Of a stretch of 33,937 bases of DNA, positions 1,602-13,952 are shown one piece after another. The translations under genes were made by a program, and so were the position numbers. The notes under the pieces are model-generated. The model made no database searches. It was not told where the DNA came from and saw only the letters and a program-made list of their open reading frames with translations. Location: assembly GCA_003228735.1 (NCBI GenBank), contig QIFG01000033.1:1-33937 (forward strand), given 5' to 3'. Position 1 is the first letter of the stretch. The number at the start of each line of letters is the position of its first letter. Source of the DNA: Zetaproteobacteria bacterium. GTDB taxonomy: Bacteria > Pseudomonadota > Zetaproteobacteria > Mariprofundales > Mariprofundaceae.

Positions 1602-3227
1602 TTGAAGATTTTGCTGGCGCAGGTGGCGCCGAAGGTTGGCGATATTGGCCACAACACCACACTGGTGCTGGAGGCCATGCGGCAGGCGGAAGATGCAGGC
1701 TCTGATGTGGTTGTATTGCCGGAACTCGTCATCACCGGCTATCCGCCCGAGGATTTGCTTTATCGCTCCTCGTTTATGGATGCGGCTGAGCAGGCCGCCC
1801 GCCGGGTGATCAGCGAAGCCGGGGAAGTCGCGGTTATTTTCGGCCACCCTAAGCGCACATCCGCCGGGCTGAAAAACAGCGCCACGCTGGCCAGGAACGG
1901 GCAGGCGCTGGGTGTATACGACAAGCAGGCGCTGGCCAACTATGGTGTGTTTGATGAGCGCCGCTACTTTACGCCGGGCGATGGCCGTGAGGTGTTCGAT
2001 GTCGATGGCTGGAAGATTGGCGTCGGTATCTGTGAAGACTTGTGGGATGATGCGGTTGTGAAGGACGCTGCCCGGCACGCGCACGATGTAATCGTGAACC
2101 TCAATGCGTCGCCGTTCCATGTCGGCAAGCAGGCCGAACGCGAAGCGCTGATGGCAAAGCGGGCGCGCCAGTTTGCGGCTCCGGTGCTGTATGTGAACCA
2201 GGTCGGCGGCCAGGATGAAGTGGTGTTCGACGGCGGTTGTCATGCCGTGGATGCGGAAGGTGTGCTCATGGCGAGAGCGCCCCTGTTTGAGACGGCATGG
2301 CTGAGTATAGACTTGGCTAAACCCTGTGGTGAGATCAGCGAAATGCCGCAGCCGCTGGAACAGATTCATGATGCGCTGGTGCTCGGTGTGCGTGACTATG
2401 TGCATCGTAACGGGTGCAGGCAGGTGCTTATCGGCTTGTCCGGCGGCATTGATTCGGCTGTTACGGCAGCATTGGCCTGCGAGGCGCTGGGTGTGGAAAA
2501 TGTGCTGGGGGTGTTGTTGCCTTCACGCTATTCCAGCGATCATTCAGTATCGGATTCGCTGGCGCTGGCTGCGAACTATGGCATTGAAACGTTTACGCTG
2601 CCGATTGAGCGGGTGGTGGAGGCAGCGGAAGGCGTTTTGTCCGAGCCGTTTGCTGAATGGGATTTGGAAAAGCCGGATGTGACCGAGGAAAATGTGCAGG
2701 CGCGCATCCGGGGAATGTTGCTTATGGCCATCAGCAACAAGACCGGCCGCATGTTGCTGACGACCGGCAACAAGAGTGAGGTGGCTGTAGGTTATGCGAC
2801 GCTGTATGGCGATATGGCCGGAGGCTTTGCGGTATTGAAGGATGTGTACAAGACGCAGGTGTTTGAGCTGGCGCGGTATATCAACAGGGATCAGGAACTG
2901 ATTCCCGAGCATACGATTGCCAAGCCACCTTCGGCGGAGCTTGCACCGGATCAGAAGGACAGCGATTTGTTGCCGGATTACGCTGAACTGGATGCGATTC
3001 TGGAGGCGCATATCCATGATCGCCTGAGCCCGGAAGAGATCATCAGCCGGGGCTTTGATGCGGATGTTGTGCTGAGGGTGGTCGGCATGCTGTATCGTGC
3101 TGAGTATAAGCGGCGGCAGGCGCCTCCGGGCGTGAAGATCACACAGCGGGCCTTCGGCCGTGATCGGCGCTATCCGATTACGCATGGCTTTAAGGAATGG
3201 CAGGCATGTCGCTACAACCAAAAGTAG
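1602..3227 (+). CDS. nadE: Glutamine-dependent NAD+ synthetase
   Basis: Catalyses the last step of NAD+ synthesis, amidating deamido-NAD+ with ammonia released from glutamine. At 541 residues it has the two-domain layout. Residues ~1-260 form a nitrilase-fold glutaminase with nucleophile C144 (GVGICEDLW) and a lysine in NSATLARNG...YDKQAL context. Residues ~265-541 are the synthetase domain with the P-loop motif GLSGGIDSAV (~278-287). The start is TTG at 1602, giving MKILLAQVAPKVGD, which is the expected N terminus. The G-rich sequence upstream is partly in a hairpin. The gene follows amt by 43 bases and precedes glnB by 28. A glutamine-consuming enzyme between amt and glnB makes sense metabolically. 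The end of the gene appears to contain a promoter for glnB. Confidence 0.95.
   Translation: MKILLAQVAPKVGDIGHNTTLVLEAMRQAEDAGSDVVVLPELVITGYPPEDLLYRSSFMDAAEQAARRVISEAGEVAVIFGHPKRTSAGLKNSATLARNGQALGVYDKQALANYGVFDERRYFTPGDGREVFDVDGWKIGVGICEDLWDDAVVKDAARHAHDVIVNLNASPFHVGKQAEREALMAKRARQFAAPVLYVNQVGGQDEVVFDGGCHAVDAEGVLMARAPLFETAWLSIDLAKPCGEISEMPQPLEQIHDALVLGVRDYVHRNGCRQVLIGLSGGIDSAVTAALACEALGVENVLGVLLPSRYSSDHSVSDSLALAANYGIETFTLPIERVVEAAEGVLSEPFAEWDLEKPDVTEENVQARIRGMLLMAISNKTGRMLLTTGNKSEVAVGYATLYGDMAGGFAVLKDVYKTQVFELARYINRDQELIPEHTIAKPPSAELAPDQKDSDLLPDYAELDAILEAHIHDRLSPEEIISRGFDADVVLRVVGMLYRAEYKRRQAPPGVKITQRAFGRDRRYPITHGFKEWQACRYNQK
3198..3213 (+). promoter_or_regulatory. Probable sigma-54 promoter of glnB-glnA
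   Basis: TGGCAGGCATGTCGCT keeps the invariant GG and GC doublets with the correct 10-base spacing and differs from the consensus TGGCACG(N4)TTGCW at two conserved positions. It lies inside the last codons of nadE. The predicted start, near 3225, falls at the nadE stop codon, about 30 bases before glnB. It would give glnB-glnA a nitrogen-regulated promoter, and no comparable motif is seen just upstream of glnA. Confidence 0.5.
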
Positions 3228-3243
3228 TGCTAACAGGCCCTAG

Positions 3244-3594
<351 letters not shown>

Positions 3595-3671
3595 CCAGGG
3601 CTGGACAGGATAAGAACAGTTTTTATAAGTTGAAAATATATTTCTGATAATGGAAAAAAGGAGAGAAGAAA

Positions 3672-5087
3672 GTGAGTGATGCAGTAAAACAGGTATTTGA
3701 CATGGTGAAGGAACACGAGGTCGAATTTATCGACATCCGCTTTACCGACACGCGCGGTAAGTGGCAGCACGTGACCTTCCCGATCAGCCAGCTCAGCGAG
3801 GATTCTTTTGAAGACGGTTTTGCCTTCGATGGCTCTTCCGTTGCCGGCTGGTGCGATATCAACAATTCGGACATGGCGATTATTCCTGATCCGGCATCGG
3901 CCCAGATTGATCCGTTCACCGAGGCGTCAACCCTTGTGCTGATCGGTTCGATTATCGACCCGACCACCGGCCAGGATTACAACCGTTGTCCGCGCAACCT
4001 TGCCAGGCGTGCGCTGAGCTACCTGCAGTCGACCGGTCTTGGCGACACGGCCTATTTTGGTCCCGAACTGGAGTTCTTTGTCTTTGACGGCGTGAATTTC
4101 CATTACGAGATGGGTTCGGCCGGTTTTGAAATCGAATCCGAGGAAGCTGCCTGGAACAGCGCCAAGCGTTATGAAGGTGGCAACATGGGGCACCGGCCGC
4201 AGGTCAAGGGCGGTTACTTCCCTGTGCCGCCGGTCGATTCCCTGAACGAGATTCGTAACGACATGTCGCTGGTTATGGATGATCTGGGCCTGCAGATGGA
4301 ATGCCATCACCATGAGGTGGCGACGGCCGGCCAGTGCGAGCTGGCGATGCGTTTTGACACCCTGATGCAGATGGCCGACAACGCGCAGTGGTACAAGTAC
4401 GTTGTCCATAACGTTGCGCATGCGCATGGCAAGACGGCAACCTTCATGCCGAAGCCGCTGTTTGGCGATAACGGTACAGGCATGCATGTCCACCAGTCGA
4501 TCTGGAAGGGTGGCAAAAACATGTTTGCCGGTGACAAGTATGCAGGTATTTCACAGGAAGCCCTGTGGTATATCGGCGGCATCATCAAGCACGCCAAGGC
4601 ATTGAACGCCTTCACCAACTCTTCCACCAACTCCTACAAGCGTCTGGTGCCGGGTTATGAAGCGCCGGTGATGCTGGCCTACTCAAACCGTAACCGTTCT
4701 GCGGCTATCCGCATTCCGGTCGTAAGCTCCGATGCAGGCAAGCGCCTTGAGGTTCGCTTCCCGGACCCGACCGCCAACCCGTACCTGGCCTTCTCGGCCA
4801 TGATGATGGCTGGTCTGGACGGCATCCTGAACAAGACCGATCCGGGCGCTCCAGCCGACAAGAATCTCTACGATCTTCCGCCTGAGGAAGCCGAAGGATT
4901 TCCGACCGTGGCAGGAAGCCTTGAGGAAGCGATCAACGAGATGTCTGCGGATCGCGAATTCCTGAAGGCTGGCGGCGTATTCGATGACGACATGATCGAT
5001 GCCTTCATCGAGCTGAAGATCGAAGAGCATGATGCGGTGCGTCTGCGTACGCATCCGATTGAGTTTGAGTTGTACTACTCCTGCTAA
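3672..5087 (+). CDS. glnA: Glutamine synthetase, type I
   Basis: Forms glutamine from glutamate, ammonia and ATP; a cytoplasmic dodecamer. The 471-residue protein has the GSI hallmarks: [11 protein letters not shown] near the N terminus, [10 protein letters not shown], the ammonium/glutamate region [28 protein letters not shown], and [10 protein letters not shown]. The adenylylation site is present at Y400 ([10 protein letters not shown]), so the enzyme is of the GlnE-regulated beta subclass. The start is GTG at 3672 with AAGGAGA spaced about 8 bases upstream. There is no in-frame ATG nearby, so GTG is the best choice. Expression is likely from the promoter ahead of glnB. A strong terminator follows 30 bases after the stop. 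Confidence 0.97.
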
Positions 5088-5116
5088 TCGATCGGTTTTC
5101 GGACCGCAAAAGATTC

Positions 5117-5150
5117 AAGGCCGTCTCCATCCGGAGGCGGCCTTTTTTTT
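5117..5150 (+). terminator. Rho-independent terminator after glnA
   Basis: A 12-base stem (AAGGCCGTCTCC against GGAGGCGGCCTT, one G-U pair, ATCC loop) runs directly into a tract of eight T. It closes the amt/nadE/glnB/glnA block. Confidence 0.93.
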
Positions 5151-5221
5151 CGGGAACGCTTTGGAGCAGGGGGGGATTGCCGGGGGTATTCGCAAATACA
5201 GTTGTTTCTCAGCCAGAGCGG

Positions 5222-5249
5222 TTGAGAACATGGCCACAGGTGGTAAAGT
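5222..5249 (+). promoter_or_regulatory. Possible sigma-70 promoter of pepA
   Basis: TTGAGA at 5222-5227 and TAAAGT at 5244-5249 are separated by 16 bases, giving moderate matches to the -35 and -10 boxes. A promoter is expected here because a terminator lies upstream and pepA starts at 5327. The exact choice of boxes is tentative. Confidence 0.3.
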
Positions 5250-5326
5250 TCAGATAATTCGCGGTTTGGGGTCTTTTTCTCCGCTTACCCCGATATTTTT
5301 CATTTTTTGTAAAACAAGAGGCAATC

Positions 5327-6826
5327 ATGATTGAGATTCAGGTCAAGTCCGGTTCGGCGGTCAAGCAGCGTGATGATGCTGTGGTTATTCCATTGCTGGA
5401 GGGGAGAAAGCTCAGTGATTCCGGCAAAGCCATCAACGCAGCCAGCAACAAGTCGCTGGTGGATTATCTGCGGAAATTCGATCAGTCCGGCGATTCCGGT
5501 GAGATCGGCACCCTGTATAACGTTCAGGGGACATTGACTGCGCGTACGGTGCTGATTGGCGCAGGCAACGAAAAAAAACTGGATTTGCACAAGCTGCGCA
5601 CGCTCGCCGCCAAAGCGGCCCGGCATCTGGAAAAAAGCGGTGCACGCGATGTGTCGTTCTTTCTGTCCGAACTTGCCGTGCGCGGAAGCGGCGCGGCGGA
5701 CAAGGCGCAGGCCATCGCTGAAGGCATCTGGCTGGGCCTGTACAAATTCGAGCAATACAAAAGCGAGAAAAAGGAAAACAAGCGTGAGCTTCGCTCGGTG
5801 ACGATCATGGTGAAATCCCGCCGTGATCTGGATGCGGCGGAGAAAGCTGTGGCTGTGGCCAGAGGGGTTTGTCGCGGCACGATTTTTGCCCGCGATCTGG
5901 CCAATGGGCCCGGCAACGTCTGCACGCCTGAATACCTTGGTGACCAGGCCAGGGCGCTGAAGCATAAAAACCTCAAGGTCACCGTCATGGACAAGAAAGC
6001 CATCGAGAAGGCCGGATTCACGGGGCTGCTGGCCGTTAATCAGGGCTCAAGCAGGGAGCCAAGGTTTATTGTTTTGAATTACCAGGGGGGCAAAAAAGGC
6101 GATGCGCCGGTTGCGCTGGTTGGCAAGGGGCTGACCTTCGATGCCGGCGGCATCAGCATCAAGCCGCCTGCGCATATGGACGAGATGAAGTTCGACATGT
6201 GCGGCGCCGCCGCCGTGCTCGGCATTTTCAGGGCCGTGTGTGAATTGAGCCTGCCGGTCAATCTGCTCGGAGTGATCGCATCCACCGAGAACCTGCTTGG
6301 TGGTGCTGCCTACAAGCCGGGCGACATCGTCAAATCCTACAAGGGTATCAACATTGAAGTGCTGAACACCGATGCCGAGGGGCGGATTATTCTGGCGGAT
6401 GCATTGGCCTATGCTGCTGAGCAGAAGCCGGAGCAAATTATCGATTTTGCCACGCTGACCGGCGCCTGTGTGGTTGCTCTGGGTTCCGAGGCCTCAGGCC
6501 TTCTGGGCAATGACGACGCTTTGCAGTCAAAGATCGAGAAATCGGGTAAGCATACGCATGATCGTGTATGGCGCCTGCCGATGTATGAGGAATATCAGGA
6601 ACAGATCAAAAGCGAGATCGCCGACATCAAGAATATCGGTGGACGTGGAGCAGGAACGATTACCGCCGCCTGCTTCCTGTCCCGCTTTGTTGATGATGTT
6701 ACATGGGCGCATCTGGACATTGCGGGCACAGCCTGGGATATGAAGGGCTCGGATATTTCCGCCAAGGGGGCGACCGGCTCCGGTGTGCGCCTGCTGCTGG
6801 ATTACCTTGGCCGCCGCACAGTCTAA
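5327..6826 (+). CDS. pepA: Leucyl aminopeptidase (M17)
   Basis: Cytosolic hexameric two-metal aminopeptidase removing N-terminal residues from peptides; in some bacteria it also binds DNA. The 499-residue protein has the variable N-terminal domain (~1-170) and a conserved catalytic C-terminal half. The latter contains GKGLTFDAGGISIKP with the metal-binding lysine and aspartate, MKFDMCGAAAVLG, and the family signature NTDAEGRIILADAL. Start ATG at 5327 follows a short AGAGG. It begins the conserved pepA-holC-valS neighbourhood, here with a PAP2 phosphatase gene inserted after it. Its 3' end overlaps the next reading frame. Confidence 0.96.
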   Translation: MIEIQVKSGSAVKQRDDAVVIPLLEGRKLSDSGKAINAASNKSLVDYLRKFDQSGDSGEIGTLYNVQGTLTARTVLIGAGNEKKLDLHKLRTLAAKAARHLEKSGARDVSFFLSELAVRGSGAADKAQAIAEGIWLGLYKFEQYKSEKKENKRELRSVTIMVKSRRDLDAAEKAVAVARGVCRGTIFARDLANGPGNVCTPEYLGDQARALKHKNLKVTVMDKKAIEKAGFTGLLAVNQGSSREPRFIVLNYQGGKKGDAPVALVGKGLTFDAGGISIKPPAHMDEMKFDMCGAAAVLGIFRAVCELSLPVNLLGVIASTENLLGGAAYKPGDIVKSYKGINIEVLNTDAEGRIILADALAYAAEQKPEQIIDFATLTGACVVALGSEASGLLGNDDALQSKIEKSGKHTHDRVWRLPMYEEYQEQIKSEIADIKNIGGRGAGTITAACFLSRFVDDVTWAHLDIAGTAWDMKGSDISAKGATGSGVRLLLDYLGRRTV

Positions 6827-7601
6827 GGCGTTTTTTCCCGGCATCAGAGGGGCTGCCATCGCGGTGGCCCTCTATGTTCTTCTGTCCGCCATTTTGGCCA
6901 CCTTGAATCAGCCGGTATTTCTGGCTGTGAACGGTGCGAACAACGCGTTTCTCGACGGGTTTCTGGGCCTGGTCAGTGGTCTGGGAGATGGCCTGATCGT
7001 GGCCCTGATTTGTACCGGCGTGATGCTCTGGCGGTTTCGATTGGGTCTGGCCGGTGTGCTGGCTTTTCTTGCCTCAGGACTGATTGCCCAATTATTGAAG
7101 CGGCTCGTGGATGCGCCCAGGCCTGCCGCCGTCTTCGATCAGGTGCATGTGCTCGGTGATGCATTGCATGCGCACAGCTTTCCGTCCGGCCATGCCACCT
7201 CGCTGGGCGTATTGATTCCCCTGGCGCTTTATCTGTTCGGTTCTAAGGATTGGCGTTGCTGGTTGCTGGGGATTTTCAGCCTGATGGCCGCCTACGGCCG
7301 CGTTTACGGGGGCGTTCATTTTCCGCTGGATGTCTGGGTGGGTCTTGGCCTTGGCGTAGCCTGCATGTGGGGCATCTGGCAGTGGATCAGGATTCAGCCG
7401 GAGTGGGACTGGGAGCAATCTATCTGGGCGTGGAATGTCCCTGCTGTTTTGCTGATGGGGGAAGCCGGTGTATTGGGGCTGGGTTATCATATGCAGCCTC
7501 TCACGGCGCAGCCGCTGGCGTGGATCGCGGCAGTGGCCGCTTTGGCTTATCTTATCCGGATGTGGAGACAGCTCCGTATGAGGAGAGAATATGGACACTA
7601 A
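6783..7601 (+). CDS. PAP2-family membrane phosphatase
   Basis: Integral membrane acid phosphatase of the PAP2 superfamily; members act on phosphatidate, undecaprenyl-diphosphate or similar lipid phosphates. All three motifs are present: KRLVDAPRP (KX6RP), SFPSGHAT (PSGH), and YGRVYGGVHFPLDVW (normally SRX5HX3D; here glycine replaces the usual serine). About six hydrophobic segments flank them, and two further helices follow the catalytic core. The start is uncertain. GTG at 6783 has AAGGGGG 12 bases upstream and overlaps pepA by 44 bases. TTG at 6807 also overlaps pepA (by 20 bases) and would drop the odd cysteine-rich start. The stop overlaps holC by 11 bases, suggesting translational coupling. 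The substrate cannot be deduced; BcrC-like undecaprenyl-diphosphate phosphatase or PgpB-like activity are both possible. Confidence 0.85.
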   Translation: MCACCWITLAAAQSKAFFPGIRGAAIAVALYVLLSAILATLNQPVFLAVNGANNAFLDGFLGLVSGLGDGLIVALICTGVMLWRFRLGLAGVLAFLASGLIAQLLKRLVDAPRPAAVFDQVHVLGDALHAHSFPSGHATSLGVLIPLALYLFGSKDWRCWLLGIFSLMAAYGRVYGGVHFPLDVWVGLGLGVACMWGIWQWIRIQPEWDWEQSIWAWNVPAVLLMGEAGVLGLGYHMQPLTAQPLAWIAAVAALAYLIRMWRQLRMRREYGH

Positions 7602-8037
7602 GGTGTATTTCGAGCGGCTGGAGCAGCCCGACCGTGTGGAGGGTATCGCACGCCTGCTGCTGAAACGCGGAAGGCTGACGCCGCATGTACTGATTCTGTG
7701 TCCGGACGCCACCTTCATGGCCAGCCTCAACGAAAAGCTGTGGACGATCCATCCCGAATCATTTCTGGCGCATGGGTTGGCCTGCGAAGACGCCAAAGCC
7801 AATGCTGAGCATCCGATCCTGCTTTCCACCGAAATAGTGAGAGACAATCAGCCGGAGGTTCTGTTCAATGGCGGCAATGAAGTGCCGCCCGATGTTTCCG
7901 GCTTTCCCAGCATTGTCGATTTTGTCGATGCCTGGAGCGAACCGTTATTGGCGGCCGCGCGCGAGCGCTTCCGCACCTACCAGCAACTGGGCATGAACCC
8001 GCAATACCTTGGCCAGAAGAAAAAGAGCGAAGGCTGA
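7591..8037 (+). CDS. holC: DNA polymerase III chi subunit
   Basis: Chi links the replicative clamp loader, through psi, to single-stranded DNA-binding protein. The 148-residue protein matches the HolC layout: an N-terminal strand (KVYFERL), a first helix with RLLLKRGRL, LILCPDATFMASLNEKLWTI with the conserved aspartate and tryptophan, a mid-region HPILLSTE, and a late helix AARERFRTYQQLGM. The 148 residues are normal for chi. A good GAGGAGAG Shine-Dalgarno precedes the ATG, which lies inside the end of the PAP2 gene. The position downstream of pepA and upstream of valS is the classic holC location and supports the call. Confidence 0.88.
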   Translation: MDTKVYFERLEQPDRVEGIARLLLKRGRLTPHVLILCPDATFMASLNEKLWTIHPESFLAHGLACEDAKANAEHPILLSTEIVRDNQPEVLFNGGNEVPPDVSGFPSIVDFVDAWSEPLLAAARERFRTYQQLGMNPQYLGQKKKSEG

Positions 8038-8088
8038 ATCGTGGCCTTAACCCTTGGCCAATGCGCAATGCTTTCGTAGCATGTGACG

Positions 8089-8760
8089 ATGCAAAAAGAA
8101 GACGATATCGATCATATTCTGAACAGCCTCGATTCTCTGCTGAAAGAGGGCGCTGTTGAAGCGCCGCTCGAAACGGAGAGCCCTGAGCAGGAAGAGGAGG
8201 TTGCCGATAAGCCTTTGGCGGAGAAGCCGGAAGGTATGATCGACGAGGATATGGCAAACACCGATGCGGCTGCCGCAGACGATAAACCGCCACTCTGGGT
8301 GATTGACCCGGATGATGAGGCCGAAGAAGCGGCCAGCGTTGATGCCGCAGATGACATCCAGTTGGATACCGAGGAACCCGACTTTTCCGACGAGCGGGAT
8401 TCAGAACCGAAGCGCCTCCTGCTTACCGAGGAGATGCTCGATAACGCAGGGCAAGCTGATGCCGAAGCAGGCGCCGCCGCCGATACCAGCGAGACCTATG
8501 ACGATCTGCAGGCGGCGGATGAACTGGAGGCGGAGGACGCAGCTATTGAGCCTGGAAACGATGAACCGGATCAGGCCCGGCAGGAGACAGACGATAATGA
8601 GACGGACACCCTTCACCCCTTGCAGGATGAGCAGACACGCAATCTCCTGGTGCAACAGATATCTTCGGATGTGAGTGCGCGTCTTGCCGAAGAGCTTCCG
8701 AACCTGATCGAGGCATGCCTCAACGAAAGACTCGCCGAACTAGATTTCGACTCAAAATAA
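8089..8760 (+). CDS. Acidic protein of unknown function between holC and valS
   Basis: I do not recognise the family. The 223-residue protein is very acidic and three-part. It has an N-terminal predicted helix (DDIDHILNSLDSLLKEG), then about 150 residues rich in D, E, A and P that should be disordered, then a C-terminal helical region of ~45 residues (NLLVQQISSDVSARLAEELP and following). A short hydrophobic motif, KRLLLTEEML, sits mid-protein. The layout of end helices joined by an acidic linker recalls PopZ-type polar organisers, but that is an architectural likeness only. ATG at 8089 is chosen; an in-frame GTG at 8083 is also possible and a stop at 8077 bounds it. No good Shine-Dalgarno is present, and a small hairpin (8068-8082) sits just upstream. 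It ends 3 bases before valS. Confidence 0.75.
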   Translation: MQKEDDIDHILNSLDSLLKEGAVEAPLETESPEQEEEVADKPLAEKPEGMIDEDMANTDAAAADDKPPLWVIDPDDEAEEAASVDAADDIQLDTEEPDFSDERDSEPKRLLLTEEMLDNAGQADAEAGAAADTSETYDDLQAADELEAEDAAIEPGNDEPDQARQETDDNETDTLHPLQDEQTRNLLVQQISSDVSARLAEELPNLIEACLNERLAELDFDSK

Positions 8761-8763
8761 TCC

Positions 8764-11430
8764 ATGACTGACAGTACGACACGGCTCGCCAAGGCCTATG
8801 ACCCCCAAAGCGTGGAGCCGGCTGTGTGCGAGCAATGGCTCGAATCCGATGCGTTTACGCCGGATTATACGCATGCAGAGCTTGAGCCCTATTGCATCGT
8901 CATTCCACCGCCGAATGTCACAGGCAGCTTGCACATGGGCCATGCCTTTTCGACCACGCTGCAGGATGTGCTGATTCGCTGGATGCGTATGAAGGGGCAT
9001 CCGACGCTGTGGCAGCCGGGCACTGATCATGCCGGTATTGCGACGCAGATGGTCGTGGAGCGCCTGCTGGACAAGGAGGGCGTGCACCGCCGCGACCTGG
9101 GCCGTGAACGTTTCCTGGATCGTGTATGGGACTGGAAGGCGCATTCAGGCGGCACAATTGCCGAGCAGTCCAAACGCATGGGTTTCTCATGTGACTGGTC
9201 ACGTGAGCGTTTCACGCTGGATGAAGGCCTGTCGGCAGCCGTGCGCGAGGTCTTCGTTCGCCTGTTTGAGGAAGGCCTGATCTATCGCGGCAAGCGCCTG
9301 GTCAACTGGGATCCTGTGCTGGAGACGGCGGTTTCCGATCTGGAAGTGGCATACGAGGAAGAGCAGGGGCATTTGTGGCATATCAGCTATCCGCTCGTTG
9401 ATAACCCTTCCGAGCACCTTATCGTGGCAACGACACGCCCGGAAACCATGCTCGGCGACTCTGCCGTGGCCGTGCATCCCGATGACGAGCGCTACAAGCA
9501 CCTGATCGGCAAGCAGGTGAAGTTGCCATTGACGGATCGCACTATCCCCGTCATCGCCGATGATTATGTCGATCCGGAGTTCGGCACGGGTTGCCTGAAG
9601 ATTACGCCGGCGCATGATTTCAACGACTACGAGGTCGGCCGCAGGCATAACCTGCCCGTCATCAATATCTTCGATCCACGTGCTCATTTGTTGACCGACG
9701 AGACCATCCCGGAGAAATACCGCGGCATGGAGCGCTATGAGGCGCGCGAGTTTATCGTCGCTGATCTCGATGCCGAGGGCGTGCTGCACAAGATCGAGGA
9801 GCACAAGCACAAGGTTGGGCGTGGCGACCGTTCGCATGCGGTGCTGGAGCCGTACCTGACCGATCAGTGGTACGTCGATATCAAGCCATTGGCGGCGCCC
9901 GCCATCAAGGCTGTTGAGGATGGCGATATCGAATTCGTGCCCAGGCACTGGGAAAAGACGTATTTTGAATGGATGCACAACATCCAGGACTGGTGCATTT
10001 CGCGCCAGTTGTGGTGGGGGCACCGTATCCCGGCCTGGTTCTGCGACGATTGCGACCATATTACCGTCAGCGCTGAAACACCGGAACGTTGCGGCGGCTG
10101 CGGTGGCGCGGCGATCAGACAGGACGAGGATGTGCTCGACACATGGTTTTCCTCCGGCCTGTGGCCGTTCTCGACCCTGGGCTGGCCGCAGAAGACCAAG
10201 GAGTTGGAAACCTTTTACCCGACCAATGTGCTGGTCACCGGTTTCGACATCATCTTCTTCTGGGTGGCCCGCATGATCATGATGGGGCTGAAATTCACGA
10301 ATGATGTGCCGTTCCGGCATGTCTATATCCATGCCCTGATCCGTGATTCCCAGGGGCAGAAAATGAGCAAGTCCAAGGGCAATGTGATCGATCCGCTGGA
10401 GATGACCGGCAAACACGGCGCCGATGCACTGCGCTTCACGCTGGCGCACATGGCCACGGCCGGCCGTGATGTGAAGCTGGATGAATCGCGCATCGAACAG
10501 AACCGCAATTTCATGAACAAGATATGGAATGCGGCGCGATTCGTGTTCATGAACCGTAGCGATGCGAAGCCGGATGCGGATTTCAGGCCCGAGGCCGATG
10601 TGAATCGCTGGATTCTTTTTGAGTTGGATGCCTGTGCGCGTGATGTGGAAGCAGCGCTGGCCGAATACCGCTTCAACGAGGCGGCCGGAAGCCTGTACGG
10701 CTTTATCTGGGGCACGTATTGCGATTGGTATGTCGAGGCGGCCAAGGTGTCGCTGTACGGAGAAGACGAAGCGGCTATTGCCGAGACCCGGATCACGATG
10801 CTGACGGCCCTGGATGGCTGGCTGCGATTACTGCATCCATTCTGCCCGTTTATCTCGGAAGTCCTGTGGCAGGAGTTGCATGGCGAGGATGCGCGGCTGG
10901 TTTCATCCGGCTGGAAGCATGCGGAAGATCACGATGAGGCAAGCTGCGATGCAGCCAGGCGCATGCGCCGGGTATGGGAGGTCGTATCTGCGATCCGCTC
11001 GATTCGCGGCGAGATGGATGTGAAGCCGGGCCTGCGTATCGCAGCCTCCGTGGCCTGTGCTCACGATGTGCGCGCCGACTTGGAGGTTCAGGCCGACCTG
11101 GTCAGCAGTCTGGCGCGGCTGGAGAGCTTGGACTGGCTTGAGTCAGGTGAGGAGATGCAGGGCGCAGCCGTTGCGCCTTTGAGCGAAGCCACCGTTTACT
11201 TACCGCTGGCAGGACTGGTCGATGTCGAGGAGGAACTGGCGCGTCTGGCCAAGCAGCAGGCCAAGCTGGACAAGGAAGTCGCCAAGCTTGAAGCAAAACT
11301 TAGCAATCCGAAGTTCCGCGAGAATGCACCGGCCGAGATTGTCAGCAAGGTGGAGCAGGAACTGGTAGATTTCCGCGCCAAGCACGCTGAGATCGAAGCG
11401 GCCGTCGGTCGCCTGAAGACGATTGGATAG
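8764..11430 (+). CDS. valS: Valyl-tRNA synthetase
   Basis: Class I synthetase charging tRNA-Val, with editing of mischarged threonine. The 888-residue protein carries the HIGH motif as HMGH (57-60, in NVTGSLHMGHAF), the CP1 editing domain with TTRPETMLGDSAVAVHP, a CxxC...CxxC zinc knuckle (CDDC and CGGC, ~residues 427-446), and KMSKS at 533-537. The anticodon-binding domain follows, then the C-terminal coiled coil (~825-888) typical of ValRS. Start ATG at 8764 follows the upstream stop by 3 bases, so it is probably translated by coupling. Nothing is missing. There is no T-box or other leader upstream. Confidence 0.98.
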   Translation: MTDSTTRLAKAYDPQSVEPAVCEQWLESDAFTPDYTHAELEPYCIVIPPPNVTGSLHMGHAFSTTLQDVLIRWMRMKGHPTLWQPGTDHAGIATQMVVERLLDKEGVHRRDLGRERFLDRVWDWKAHSGGTIAEQSKRMGFSCDWSRERFTLDEGLSAAVREVFVRLFEEGLIYRGKRLVNWDPVLETAVSDLEVAYEEEQGHLWHISYPLVDNPSEHLIVATTRPETMLGDSAVAVHPDDERYKHLIGKQVKLPLTDRTIPVIADDYVDPEFGTGCLKITPAHDFNDYEVGRRHNLPVINIFDPRAHLLTDETIPEKYRGMERYEAREFIVADLDAEGVLHKIEEHKHKVGRGDRSHAVLEPYLTDQWYVDIKPLAAPAIKAVEDGDIEFVPRHWEKTYFEWMHNIQDWCISRQLWWGHRIPAWFCDDCDHITVSAETPERCGGCGGAAIRQDEDVLDTWFSSGLWPFSTLGWPQKTKELETFYPTNVLVTGFDIIFFWVARMIMMGLKFTNDVPFRHVYIHALIRDSQGQKMSKSKGNVIDPLEMTGKHGADALRFTLAHMATAGRDVKLDESRIEQNRNFMNKIWNAARFVFMNRSDAKPDADFRPEADVNRWILFELDACARDVEAALAEYRFNEAAGSLYGFIWGTYCDWYVEAAKVSLYGEDEAAIAETRITMLTALDGWLRLLHPFCPFISEVLWQELHGEDARLVSSGWKHAEDHDEASCDAARRMRRVWEVVSAIRSIRGEMDVKPGLRIAASVACAHDVRADLEVQADLVSSLARLESLDWLESGEEMQGAAVAPLSEATVYLPLAGLVDVEEELARLAKQQAKLDKEVAKLEAKLSNPKFRENAPAEIVSKVEQELVDFRAKHAEIEAAVGRLKTIG

Positions 11431-11439
11431 TGATCTGAC

Positions 11440-13239
11440 ATGCCTGTAAAAAGGAAACGTCGAGCGGAGGAGTCAGGCAAGCTTCGTATCGGCGATGACT
11501 GGCAAGCCATTACCATCATTGCCCTGTCTCAGAATAATCCGCTTAAGGCTGTGGCGGAGTTTGTGGAAAATAGCATTGATGCCAATGCAACAAATATCAC
11601 CATTGTTCGAGGCAAAGAGAAGGGAATGCCATATCTCCGCATCACGGATGACGGTGAGGGCGTGCCCCGTGATGCAAATGGCATACCCAACTTCAAGCAT
11701 GTCGCTACGCACATATGCGATTCAATCAAGCGGCAATTAAAAGCCAGCGGGGTTAAAGGCGTACAGGGTGAATTCGGTATCGGGCTGTTAAGTTTCTGGA
11801 CAGTTGGAGAAGAACTGACCATGGCTTGCACTGCCTCAGATGGCAGAACCTATGAGATGCGCATGCGCAAGGGTGATCCGGGTTATCTGGTGTCAAAGAA
11901 GCGGACGCTGTTTTCTGAACACGGAACAGAATTGACCATCAGGCCGCTGTTGCCCGGTATCAGGCATCTCAGCGGTGAAAAGATTCAGTGGTATCTTGCC
12001 TCGGAGCTGCGCGACCGCATTCGGAAATCCTCTGTTAAGGTCACTGTCATAGATCGTCAAGCCCGTAAGCAATGCACAGTGGAGCCAAGGCAGTTTGGCG
12101 GCCGGCTGCTTCATCAATTACCTCTGCCCAGATGCAGCTTTGGGGATATCTATCTTGAGTTGTATCTGGCCGACTCGGGCACATCCAATCAGGTTGGATT
12201 GTATCGCTCAGGTACGCGGGTCCTGGAGGCCATTACCCAGCTTGATGCATTTCAGCATTCTCCCTGGAGCGAAGGATTCATCCAGGGAATCGTGGATGTG
12301 CCATTTCTTAGCCTGACGCCGGGAACGCGCAGCGGCATTATCCATGATGTGGCATTTGCAGCCATGCAGGAGTGTATAAAACCCACCGAGAAAGCACTCG
12401 TTCACATCATTGAAGAGCAGAAAAAGGCTGAGGAAGAACGAGCAAGCCGCAAGATACTGAAAACAATCCAGAAAGCATTTCGAGAGGCATTGCTGACCCT
12501 TCCTGTAGAGGAATACGACTGGTTCGATATTCACAAGGGGGGGGAAGGACACAGGCATCAATCTCAGCAGGGAGTGGAAACGGTTAACGAGGGCAGTGTT
12601 TCCGTTACAGGGGCAGGCGCCGCCGAAAAGCAGAAGCAGTTTTTTGAATATGCAGGGCCACTATACAGCGTTCGCATCTCACCCTCTTCATGTGTGCTGC
12701 CAGTGGGTGAATCCAGAACGCTGCGTGCTATAGCACGGGACCGTTCACGCAACCTTGTTGAACATCACGTTCAGTTTAACTGGCAACTTGCTGAGGGCAA
12801 CGGCCACATAGAGGACGAGCACGATGAGGTGGCAACCTTTCAGGCTGCTTCTGAACCGGGCCTGGTGCGGCTGAAGGTGATCGCTAGCCAGCATGACATA
12901 TGCTGTGATGGCGAAGCGCTGATTACGGTTACCGAATCGCTCCTGCCTGAAAGCAGAGCGCCTGCTTCGGTAAGTCATGGTTTGCCCGGTTATACGTACA
13001 GGCGTGCGCCGGGAGAGTTGTGGCGGTCGAAATTTGACGCCGACCAGAATGTCATCGTCATTAATAATGGCCACAGGGATTTTGTCTATGCCTCACGAGT
13101 CAAGGCGCTTAAGCTGAGATACATCTGCCGCCTGTTTGCCAAGGAACTGGTATTTAAGAATTTTCCGGGCTATTCAGCGGAACAGTTACTGGAGCGCATG
13201 GTGGAGCTGTCCCTTTACACTGAGGAGCATCTGAAATGA
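11440..13239 (+). CDS. GHKL ATPase with coiled coil and Ig-like domain, function unknown
   Basis: A 599-residue cytoplasmic protein (no signal peptide or membrane segment). Residues ~15-200 form a GHKL (Hsp90/MutL/MORC-type) ATP-binding domain with all boxes: N-box EFVENSIDA (40-48; E40, N44, D47), G1 box DDGEGVP (70-76), and G2 box GEFGIG (110-115). A second alpha/beta region (~200-305) probably acts as the transducer. Residues ~310-355 are a charged coiled coil (EEQKKAEEERASRK). After a linker, ~405-500 looks like a bacterial Ig-like domain (VRISPSSCVLPVGESRTLRA), and the final ~70 residues form a conserved-looking helical tail (INNGHRDFVYASRVKALKLR). It starts 9 bases after valS and its stop overlaps the cysH start (ATGA). 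Codon use appears somewhat less GC-biased than in its neighbours. The ATPase fold is firm; the biological role is unknown. Confidence 0.85.
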   Translation: MPVKRKRRAEESGKLRIGDDWQAITIIALSQNNPLKAVAEFVENSIDANATNITIVRGKEKGMPYLRITDDGEGVPRDANGIPNFKHVATHICDSIKRQLKASGVKGVQGEFGIGLLSFWTVGEELTMACTASDGRTYEMRMRKGDPGYLVSKKRTLFSEHGTELTIRPLLPGIRHLSGEKIQWYLASELRDRIRKSSVKVTVIDRQARKQCTVEPRQFGGRLLHQLPLPRCSFGDIYLELYLADSGTSNQVGLYRSGTRVLEAITQLDAFQHSPWSEGFIQGIVDVPFLSLTPGTRSGIIHDVAFAAMQECIKPTEKALVHIIEEQKKAEEERASRKILKTIQKAFREALLTLPVEEYDWFDIHKGGEGHRHQSQQGVETVNEGSVSVTGAGAAEKQKQFFEYAGPLYSVRISPSSCVLPVGESRTLRAIARDRSRNLVEHHVQFNWQLAEGNGHIEDEHDEVATFQAASEPGLVRLKVIASQHDICCDGEALITVTESLLPESRAPASVSHGLPGYTYRRAPGELWRSKFDADQNVIVINNGHRDFVYASRVKALKLRYICRLFAKELVFKNFPGYSAEQLLERMVELSLYTEEHLK

Positions 13240-13952
13240 ATGGCGGCATACAGGAGTGTGGGTTGCAAGCGAAACTTGATCAAACAATCAGACTATTGGA
13301 TCAAGCGCAAGATCAGTTTGCTCCAGATATCGTCTTCGCCTGCAGCTTTGGCGCCGAGGATGTGGTGCTGATCGATTTAATCAGCAGGCAGGCGCCGTCC
13401 ATTCGAATCGTCACACTTGATACCGGGCGTCTGCCACAGGCCACCTATGATGTGATGGATGCCTGCCGGAAGCGTTATGGCGTCGATATCGATGTATATT
13501 TCCCCGATGCCGGAGAGGTTGAGCAGATGGTGCGAAAGCATGGTCTCAATCTGTTTTATCATTCTGTCGAGAACCGCAAGCGCTGCTGCGAGGTGCGCAA
13601 GATTCACCCGTTGCGGCGCGCGCTGGCCGGCAAGAAGGCGTGGATTACAGGTCTGCGCCGTGAGCAGGCAGATTCACGTCAGGCGATGGCGGCGATTGAG
13701 AATGACGGCCATTTCGGCATCAAAAAGTTCAATCCGCTGATTGAGTGGAGCCAGGATGATGTCTGGGCCTATATCCGTGAGCACGATGTGCCGTATAACG
13801 CCCTGCATGATCAGCACTATCCCTCGATCGGTTGTGAGCCCTGCACCAGAGCCATCACGGTTGGCGAGGATATAAGGGCCGGCCGCTGGTGGTGGGAGAA
13901 CGAGGAAGGCGTGGCCGAGTGCGGCCTGCACGCCAATCCGCTCAAAAAATAG
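13236..13952 (+). CDS. cysH: Adenylyl-sulfate (APS) reductase, iron-sulfur type
   Basis: Reduces activated sulfate to sulfite in sulfate assimilation, using thioredoxin. The 238-residue protein has the PP-loop-like start CSFGAEDVVLIDLI, the LDTGRLPQATYDV motif, and GLRREQADSR. It carries both cysteine pairs that bind a [4Fe-4S] cluster: C117-C118 (KRCCEVRK) and C200/C203 (GCEPCTR). The catalytic cysteine is C229 in ECGLH. The cluster cysteines mark it as the APS-using form (EC 1.8.4.10) and not the cluster-free PAPS reductase of enterobacteria. The start overlaps the stop of the ATPase gene. No other sulfate-assimilation gene is in the window, so it is isolated from its pathway partners here. 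Confidence 0.94.
   Translation: MNGGIQECGLQAKLDQTIRLLDQAQDQFAPDIVFACSFGAEDVVLIDLISRQAPSIRIVTLDTGRLPQATYDVMDACRKRYGVDIDVYFPDAGEVEQMVRKHGLNLFYHSVENRKRCCEVRKIHPLRRALAGKKAWITGLRREQADSRQAMAAIENDGHFGIKKFNPLIEWSQDDVWAYIREHDVPYNALHDQHYPSIGCEPCTRAITVGEDIRAGRWWWENEEGVAECGLHANPLKK

Follow-up and report, generated by a model that had tools for sequence, protein, structure and literature searches.

The window analysed here is the 33,937-nucleotide contig QIFG01000033.1 from the zetaproteobacterial genome assembly GCA_003228735.1. An open reading frame with an ATG start at 11440..13239 encodes a 599-residue ATPase in which a GHKL domain, an S5-like transducer, a long helix, an immunoglobulin (Ig)-like domain and a C-terminal domain (CTD) follow one another; this gene, its two neighbours and the features of the gene described below lie on the forward strand. 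The boundaries of the gene are exactly those of a first-pass annotation made from the sequence, which was also right about the 9 bases that separate it from the stop codon (11428-11430) of valS (8764..11430) and about the 4-base ATGA overlap with the PAPS/APS reductase gene cysH (13236..13952, ATG at 13236; PF01507, 5e-51). The product is soluble. As already stated in that annotation it lacks a signal peptide, and it is also devoid of a membrane segment (maximum 19-residue hydropathy 1.08). The proposed coupling to cysH, on the other hand, found no support. Among 80 homologues none has valS or cysH close by. In the closest relatives cysH resides elsewhere, mostly downstream of another gene, and valS has assorted neighbours in relatives. 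The operon-like packing is therefore private to the window genome and both flanking genes are chance neighbours. The GC content of the ATPase gene (52.0%, versus 58.9% for valS) and its GC3 (55% versus 72%) are below those of the flanking genes.

The GHKL ATPase domain comprises residues 13-175 (11476..11964) and is apparent in the AlphaFold2 model. HATPase_c_3 (E 1.7e-11, residues 36-137) is the only Pfam model matched above cut-off, and 48 of the 163 columns of the domain are invariant. All four ATP-binding motifs of the GHKL superfamily (E..N, DxGxG, GxxGxG and GT) were found in the alignment of 46 homologues; from the single protein, the first-pass annotation had read N44, DDGEGVP and GEFGIG as intact motifs. 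Motif I (11557..11571) extends from E40, the presumed general base, to N44, the presumed Mg/ATP ligand, roles that are assigned by analogy with Hsp90 and MutL. Motif II is D70-x-G72-x-G74 (11647..11661), while motif III, the lid, reads GEFGIG (residues 110-115, 11767..11784) and resembles GQFGVG of Hsp90 in the homologue alignment and in the hhalign alignment with HtpG. Motif IV consists of G162-T163 (11923..11928). E40, N44, D70, G72, G74, G162 and, in the lid, G110, G113 and G115 are invariant in 46/46 homologues, and T163 is conserved in 44/46. ATP binding and hydrolysis should be expected of such a module by analogy, and this activity is predicted here.

A transducer resembling S5 and the Hsp90 middle domain (residues 176-303, 11965..12348) follows, which the first-pass annotation had overlooked, as it had the invariant motif EEYDWFDI further downstream. 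Comparison with HtpG by hhalign extended over residues 37-310 (252 columns comprising GHKL and middle domains, E 3.8e-10), whereas the alignment with MutL was confined to 129 columns of the GHKL domain. In the former alignment 'QGIVDVPFLSLTPGTR' is paired with an HtpG stretch whose last residues are LPLNVSR, where the arginine of the Hsp90 middle domain is situated. R297 in TPGTR (12328..12330), the presumed ATP-contacting arginine, is invariant in 46/46 sequences and aligns with the arginine of HtpG LPLNVSRE. When the full-length model was submitted to Foldseek, 50 of the 50 best PDB matches were Hsp90 structures (about 360-390 columns), the high overall rmsd limiting this to local fold agreement.

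In the full-length AlphaFold2 model (pLDDT 76) the GHKL and S5-like domains are followed by a helix of about 50 residues, a low-confidence stretch (residues 354-403), the Ig-like domain and a CTD of strands followed by helices; with a pTM of 0.43 the placement of the domains relative to each other is not trustworthy. The helix was assigned to residues 304-355 (12349..12504). What had been annotated as a coiled coil is present as this one long predicted helix (residues 304-353 in the model), the coiling itself being a prediction of the first-pass annotation only. EEYDWFDI (residues 357-364, 12508..12531) is located in the low-confidence stretch; E357 to F362 are conserved in 46/46 and D363 and I364 in 45/46 homologues, and the motif is possibly a docking peptide. 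The variable linker (residues 365-403, 12532..12648; pLDDT about 30) is likely disordered, with a mean identity of 18% over residues 365-400.

The Ig-like domain (residues 404-500, 12649..12939), of the PKD/Big-like kind, proved to be real. In a model of residues 400-599 (overall pLDDT 87) it reached a pLDDT of about 90 or more, and a Foldseek search with this model returned PKD, Big/LigA, lambda tail-tube and other Ig-like folds (E about 1e-5). Sequence profiles gave a weak PKD match in 2/46 members and weak matches to LigA/LigB. The C-terminal region had been described as conserved-looking, and the CTD (residues 513-599, 12976..13236) indeed exhibits a mean pairwise identity of 68%, as high as that of the ATPase domain. 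Seventeen of its 87 columns are invariant and the invariant polar residues include N537, N542, H545, D547, R560, R564, K568, E569 and N574, of which three belong to the sequence N542-N-G-H545-R-D547 (13063..13080; N, H and D invariant in 46/46). The domain is basic in all members (mean net charge +4.3, range +1 to +7). It is without known relative: Foldseek of the 400-599 model yielded none for this part, profile searches against PDB sequences and Pfam gave nothing convincing, and a CTD profile run across 399 genomes matched the window protein alone. A nuclease was found in the CTD neither by profile searches nor among the 50 best Foldseek matches.

Scanning of a collection of genomes from 84,980 species identified at least 91 further loci with relatives, a lower bound as the search patterns were derived from the window sequence alone. 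Eighty of these were kept for comparison and 46 full-length members were aligned. Identity of these 80 to the window protein ranges from 51 to 66%, in most cases over the full length, and the family is spread over at least eight phyla; the complete order of GHKL, S5, helix, Ig and CTD is kept together in every full-length homologue. Mean pairwise identities amount to 68% for GHKL, 62% for S5, 50% for Ig and 68% for the CTD, compared with the 18% of the linker. A few homologues (L040, L101-L104) are split into two frames, which may reflect assembly errors or decay. No full-length homologue was detected by sequence search in 99 other related genomes, in which matches were short and consistent with MutL, nor by profile search in 398 other sampled genomes of the phylum, and the phages, plasmids and viral contigs searched did not contain family members. 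Matches listed are almost all from metagenome-assembled genomes. A phylogenetic tree joins rows from different phyla with strong to full support: for instance, L034 (Deferribacterota) groups with L035 (Nitrospirota), and rows labelled Acidobacteriota fall among those from Pseudomonadota, though some phylum labels in this tree are those of metagenome bins, in which misbinned contigs are possible. Patchy presence, high identity across phyla, the mixing of phyla in the tree, the gene neighbourhoods and the low GC and GC3 of the window gene fit lateral spread of the family between bacterial phyla. Homology searches did not place the protein in any characterised family, none of the family libraries searched names the architecture, and it was not found in published papers within a limited, open-access search. 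The family is rare, unnamed, very conserved and undescribed.

When gene neighbourhoods of the homologues were mapped, no gene family common to most loci emerged. The ATPase gene is mostly solitary and its surroundings (10 kb to either side) are mostly concerned with ordinary metabolism. Neither the protein itself nor any gene that regularly accompanies it was recognised as belonging to a nuclease, methylase or DNA-binding family, and a methylase/endonuclease operon pattern did not appear across the neighbourhoods. The only recurring neighbour is a SNF2 helicase (PF00176) of about 740-850 residues with a SWIM-like C-x-C...C-x-H motif that was read directly from the sequence. It is encoded at 6/80 loci (L063, L070, L082, L087, L090 and L095) from three separate lineages, 23-702 bases from the ATPase gene and in both relative orientations. 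SNF2 genes account for 6/137 of the near genes (within 1 kb) versus 0/420 of those farther away (Fisher p 2e-4, chosen post hoc); counted as three lineages, p is 0.015 before correction, again post hoc. AbiEii toxin genes directly precede the homologues at L033 and L098. Otherwise, single matches to AbiE, Fic, RT and a type I S subunit do not add up to a consistent picture, and enrichment in defence islands was rejected. DUF4143/AAA_14 genes recur near the ATPase gene, yet the host genomes carry many copies, and a partner role was dismissed. At L037 an ERCC4 nuclease with helix-hairpin-helix repeats (2502-3239) is encoded 44 bases upstream of the homologue. The homologue at L090 in Omnitrophota is surrounded (3052-10855) by what appear by eye to be genes for a MazF-type toxin, an IS200-type transposase, a group II intron-type maturase and a DUF3800-like protein, that is by a mobile-looking island.

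The first-pass annotation had likened the protein to Hsp90, MutL and MORC alike. Profile and fold comparison establish Hsp90 as the nearest of these and place the N-terminal half closer to Hsp90 than to MORC. The family shares with Hsp90/HtpG the GHKL domain, the GxFGxG lid and the middle domain with its conserved arginine. It differs from it in lacking a PF00183 match (E up to 1) and the Hsp90 C-terminal dimer domain, in carrying an additional Ig-like domain as well as a new CTD, and in its patchy, laterally mobile occurrence; in NCBIfam a weak Hsp90 match to the GHKL part remained far below cut-off. Bacterial MORC and paraMORC proteins are reported to accompany SFII helicases in restriction systems and, in some cases, to stand alone (PMC2292703). 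MORC and paraMORC1-5 resemble the present family in the combination of GHKL and S5 with intact motifs, in a C-terminal extension particular to each family, in sporadic distribution and in having some solitary members (PMC2292703); the SWIM-SNF2 gene beside 6/80 loci may correspond to their SFII helicase neighbours. In contrast, the MORC S5 motif GhXhhpXXRhl and the HxH of paraMORC5 occur in 0/46 members, ExxxH in S5 (paraMORC2) in 6/46, models for the nuclease (E-D-ExK) of paraMORC3 and for the TIR domain of paraMORC4 are not matched, methylase/endonuclease operons are lacking, and the term immunoglobulin is absent from that publication (PMC2292703). The family thus has the general paraMORC architecture and none of the family-specific traits compared, which were published traits of MORC and of paraMORC2 to paraMORC5.

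Further systems with a GHKL domain resemble the family to a lesser extent. VcSduA, a GHKL-Shedu protein, carries a GHKL domain joined to a C-terminal PD-(D/E)xK nuclease (PMC12137116). It shares with our family, as does the Mesorhizobium plasmid protein P0002, the N-terminal GHKL domain and the nature of an accessory single gene; the present proteins, however, end in Ig and CTD, without a DUF4263 PD-(D/E)xK match or a nuclease among the 50 best folds. P0002 (L112:4950-6938) contains a nuclease-like IELKRP stretch and is probably of the GHKL-Shedu kind. The restriction enzyme model BbrUII/HgiDII (NF050001) scored 23 bits versus a cut-off of 550 with the GHKL part only, placing the window protein outside that family, and PADLOC returned one weak restriction-enzyme match, likewise limited to GHKL, and no other defence-model match. 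Comparison with predicted viral structures revealed that the GHKL and S5 fold is shared with phage T4 RIIA-type proteins over about 340-400 columns, but identity is about 15% and Ig and CTD are without match. This likeness, seen between models, may possibly indicate a link between clamp ATPases of phages and their hosts.

In Hsp90, MutL and MORC the module of GHKL and S5 closes on ATP as a dimer. By analogy, we tentatively favour an ATP-gated clamp that is mobile between lineages, mostly encoded by a solitary gene and DNA-directed in an accessory role, a reading to which we give a little less than an even chance. The CTD, which lends itself to permanent dimerisation or to housing an effector site, would hold two chains together. 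ATP binding would close the N-terminal ends and hydrolysis would reopen them, such that a target might be trapped in the lumen of the dimer and then released. Selecting or retaining this target would fall to the Ig domain together with the basic CTD, and EEYDWFDI could serve to dock onto either the ATPase or a partner. The target may be foreign or damaged DNA or DNA-bound complexes, sometimes handled together with the SWIM-SNF2 helicase encoded next door. By the precedent of MORC and paraMORC, such a clamp would probably serve in DNA remodelling or trapping for genome defence or maintenance. This reading is supported by the invariance of the GHKL motifs and R297, by the Hsp90-like module of GHKL and middle domain, by a CTD that matches the ATPase domain in conservation and is basic in all members, by patchiness and mobility, the SNF2 neighbour, the two AbiEii-adjacent loci and the MORC/paraMORC precedent (PMC2292703). 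Against it speak the lack of any recognisable nuclease, methylase or DNA-binding family, whether within the protein or among regular neighbours, the mostly metabolic surroundings, the lack of defence-model matches beyond the weak one to GHKL, the 74/80 loci without SNF2 and the post hoc nature of that association, and an absence from phages and plasmids, in which the family differs from many defence genes.

Proteins or sugars are the usual ligands of Ig folds, and the N-terminal half is closest to Hsp90 down to the lid and the middle-domain arginine. The foremost alternative, albeit an unlikely one, is a specialised Hsp90-like chaperone, whose Ig-like domain and CTD would bind a protein client that is folded or remodelled by the GHKL/middle engine. 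The Hsp90 C-terminal region and a PF00183 match are missing, though, the host has its own HtpG, a mobile solitary gene without conserved client neighbour would be unusual for a client-specific chaperone, and the neighbour that does recur is a helicase. Still less probable is a single-gene anti-phage effector, in which the CTD with its invariant N-x2-H-x-D, R and K-E would form a catalytic domain of a new kind that the GHKL clamp activates. The 17 invariant positions, many of them polar, the mobile and patchy distribution and the nuclease of VcSduA (PMC12137116) are in line with this proposal. The same conservation could equally reflect a dimer interface, however, searches by fold and by sequence matched the CTD to no nuclease, HxH is found in no member, no nuclease domain was recognised, and defence-rich neighbourhoods are not the rule.

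A part in mismatch repair, or a stand-in for MutL, is very improbable. Among NCBIfam models, MutL (TIGR00585) scores best with the GHKL domain (2.4e-10), and neither MutL nor MutS (PF00488) was found in the window genome, while 20/20 relatives searched carry a MutL match above cut-off. The match is restricted to GHKL and amounts to 40 bits versus a cut-off of 180, the C-terminal half is a different one without the MutL C-terminal domain, and at 95.6% completeness of the genome mismatch repair may have been lost or the missing genes may fall into a gap of the assembly. True MutL is present in 21/26 genomes with a family member, and replacement of MutL was rejected as the role of the family. Least probable of all is an accessory of sulfur assimilation working with CysH, as the 4-base overlap might suggest; this was rejected because it is contradicted by the neighbourhoods of homologues and relatives. 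Our order of preference thus runs from a DNA-directed accessory clamp over a specialised chaperone to a single-gene effector. Whereas chaperone and DNA/RNA clamp had initially been considered equally possible and a defence function conceivable, the passage of the family from phylum to phylum, together with the SNF2 helicase that recurs beside it, shifts the balance towards a DNA-related accessory role without settling the matter.

The family seems to have been overlooked because no searched family library names it and its matches derive mostly from metagenome-assembled genomes. A protein of about 600 residues that retains more than 50% identity across at least eight phyla and yet is rare and solitary points to a strong, portable function. 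The pairing of GHKL-type proteins with SNF2 enzymes has until now been known chiefly from chromatin silencing in eukaryotes. At its boldest, and we regard this as doubtful, the family could represent an undescribed, horizontally mobile prokaryotic machine for genome defence or DNA silencing, in which an ATP clamp of the Hsp90/MORC type, with intracellular target recognition by an Ig-like domain and a new CTD that locks or cuts, would act alone or with a SWIM-SNF2 remodeller as a bacterial counterpart of eukaryotic silencing by MORC and SNF2. Should the clamp indeed act on DNA, GHKL proteins of bacteria would thereby be connected with recognition of the Ig type and with remodellers of the SNF2 class.
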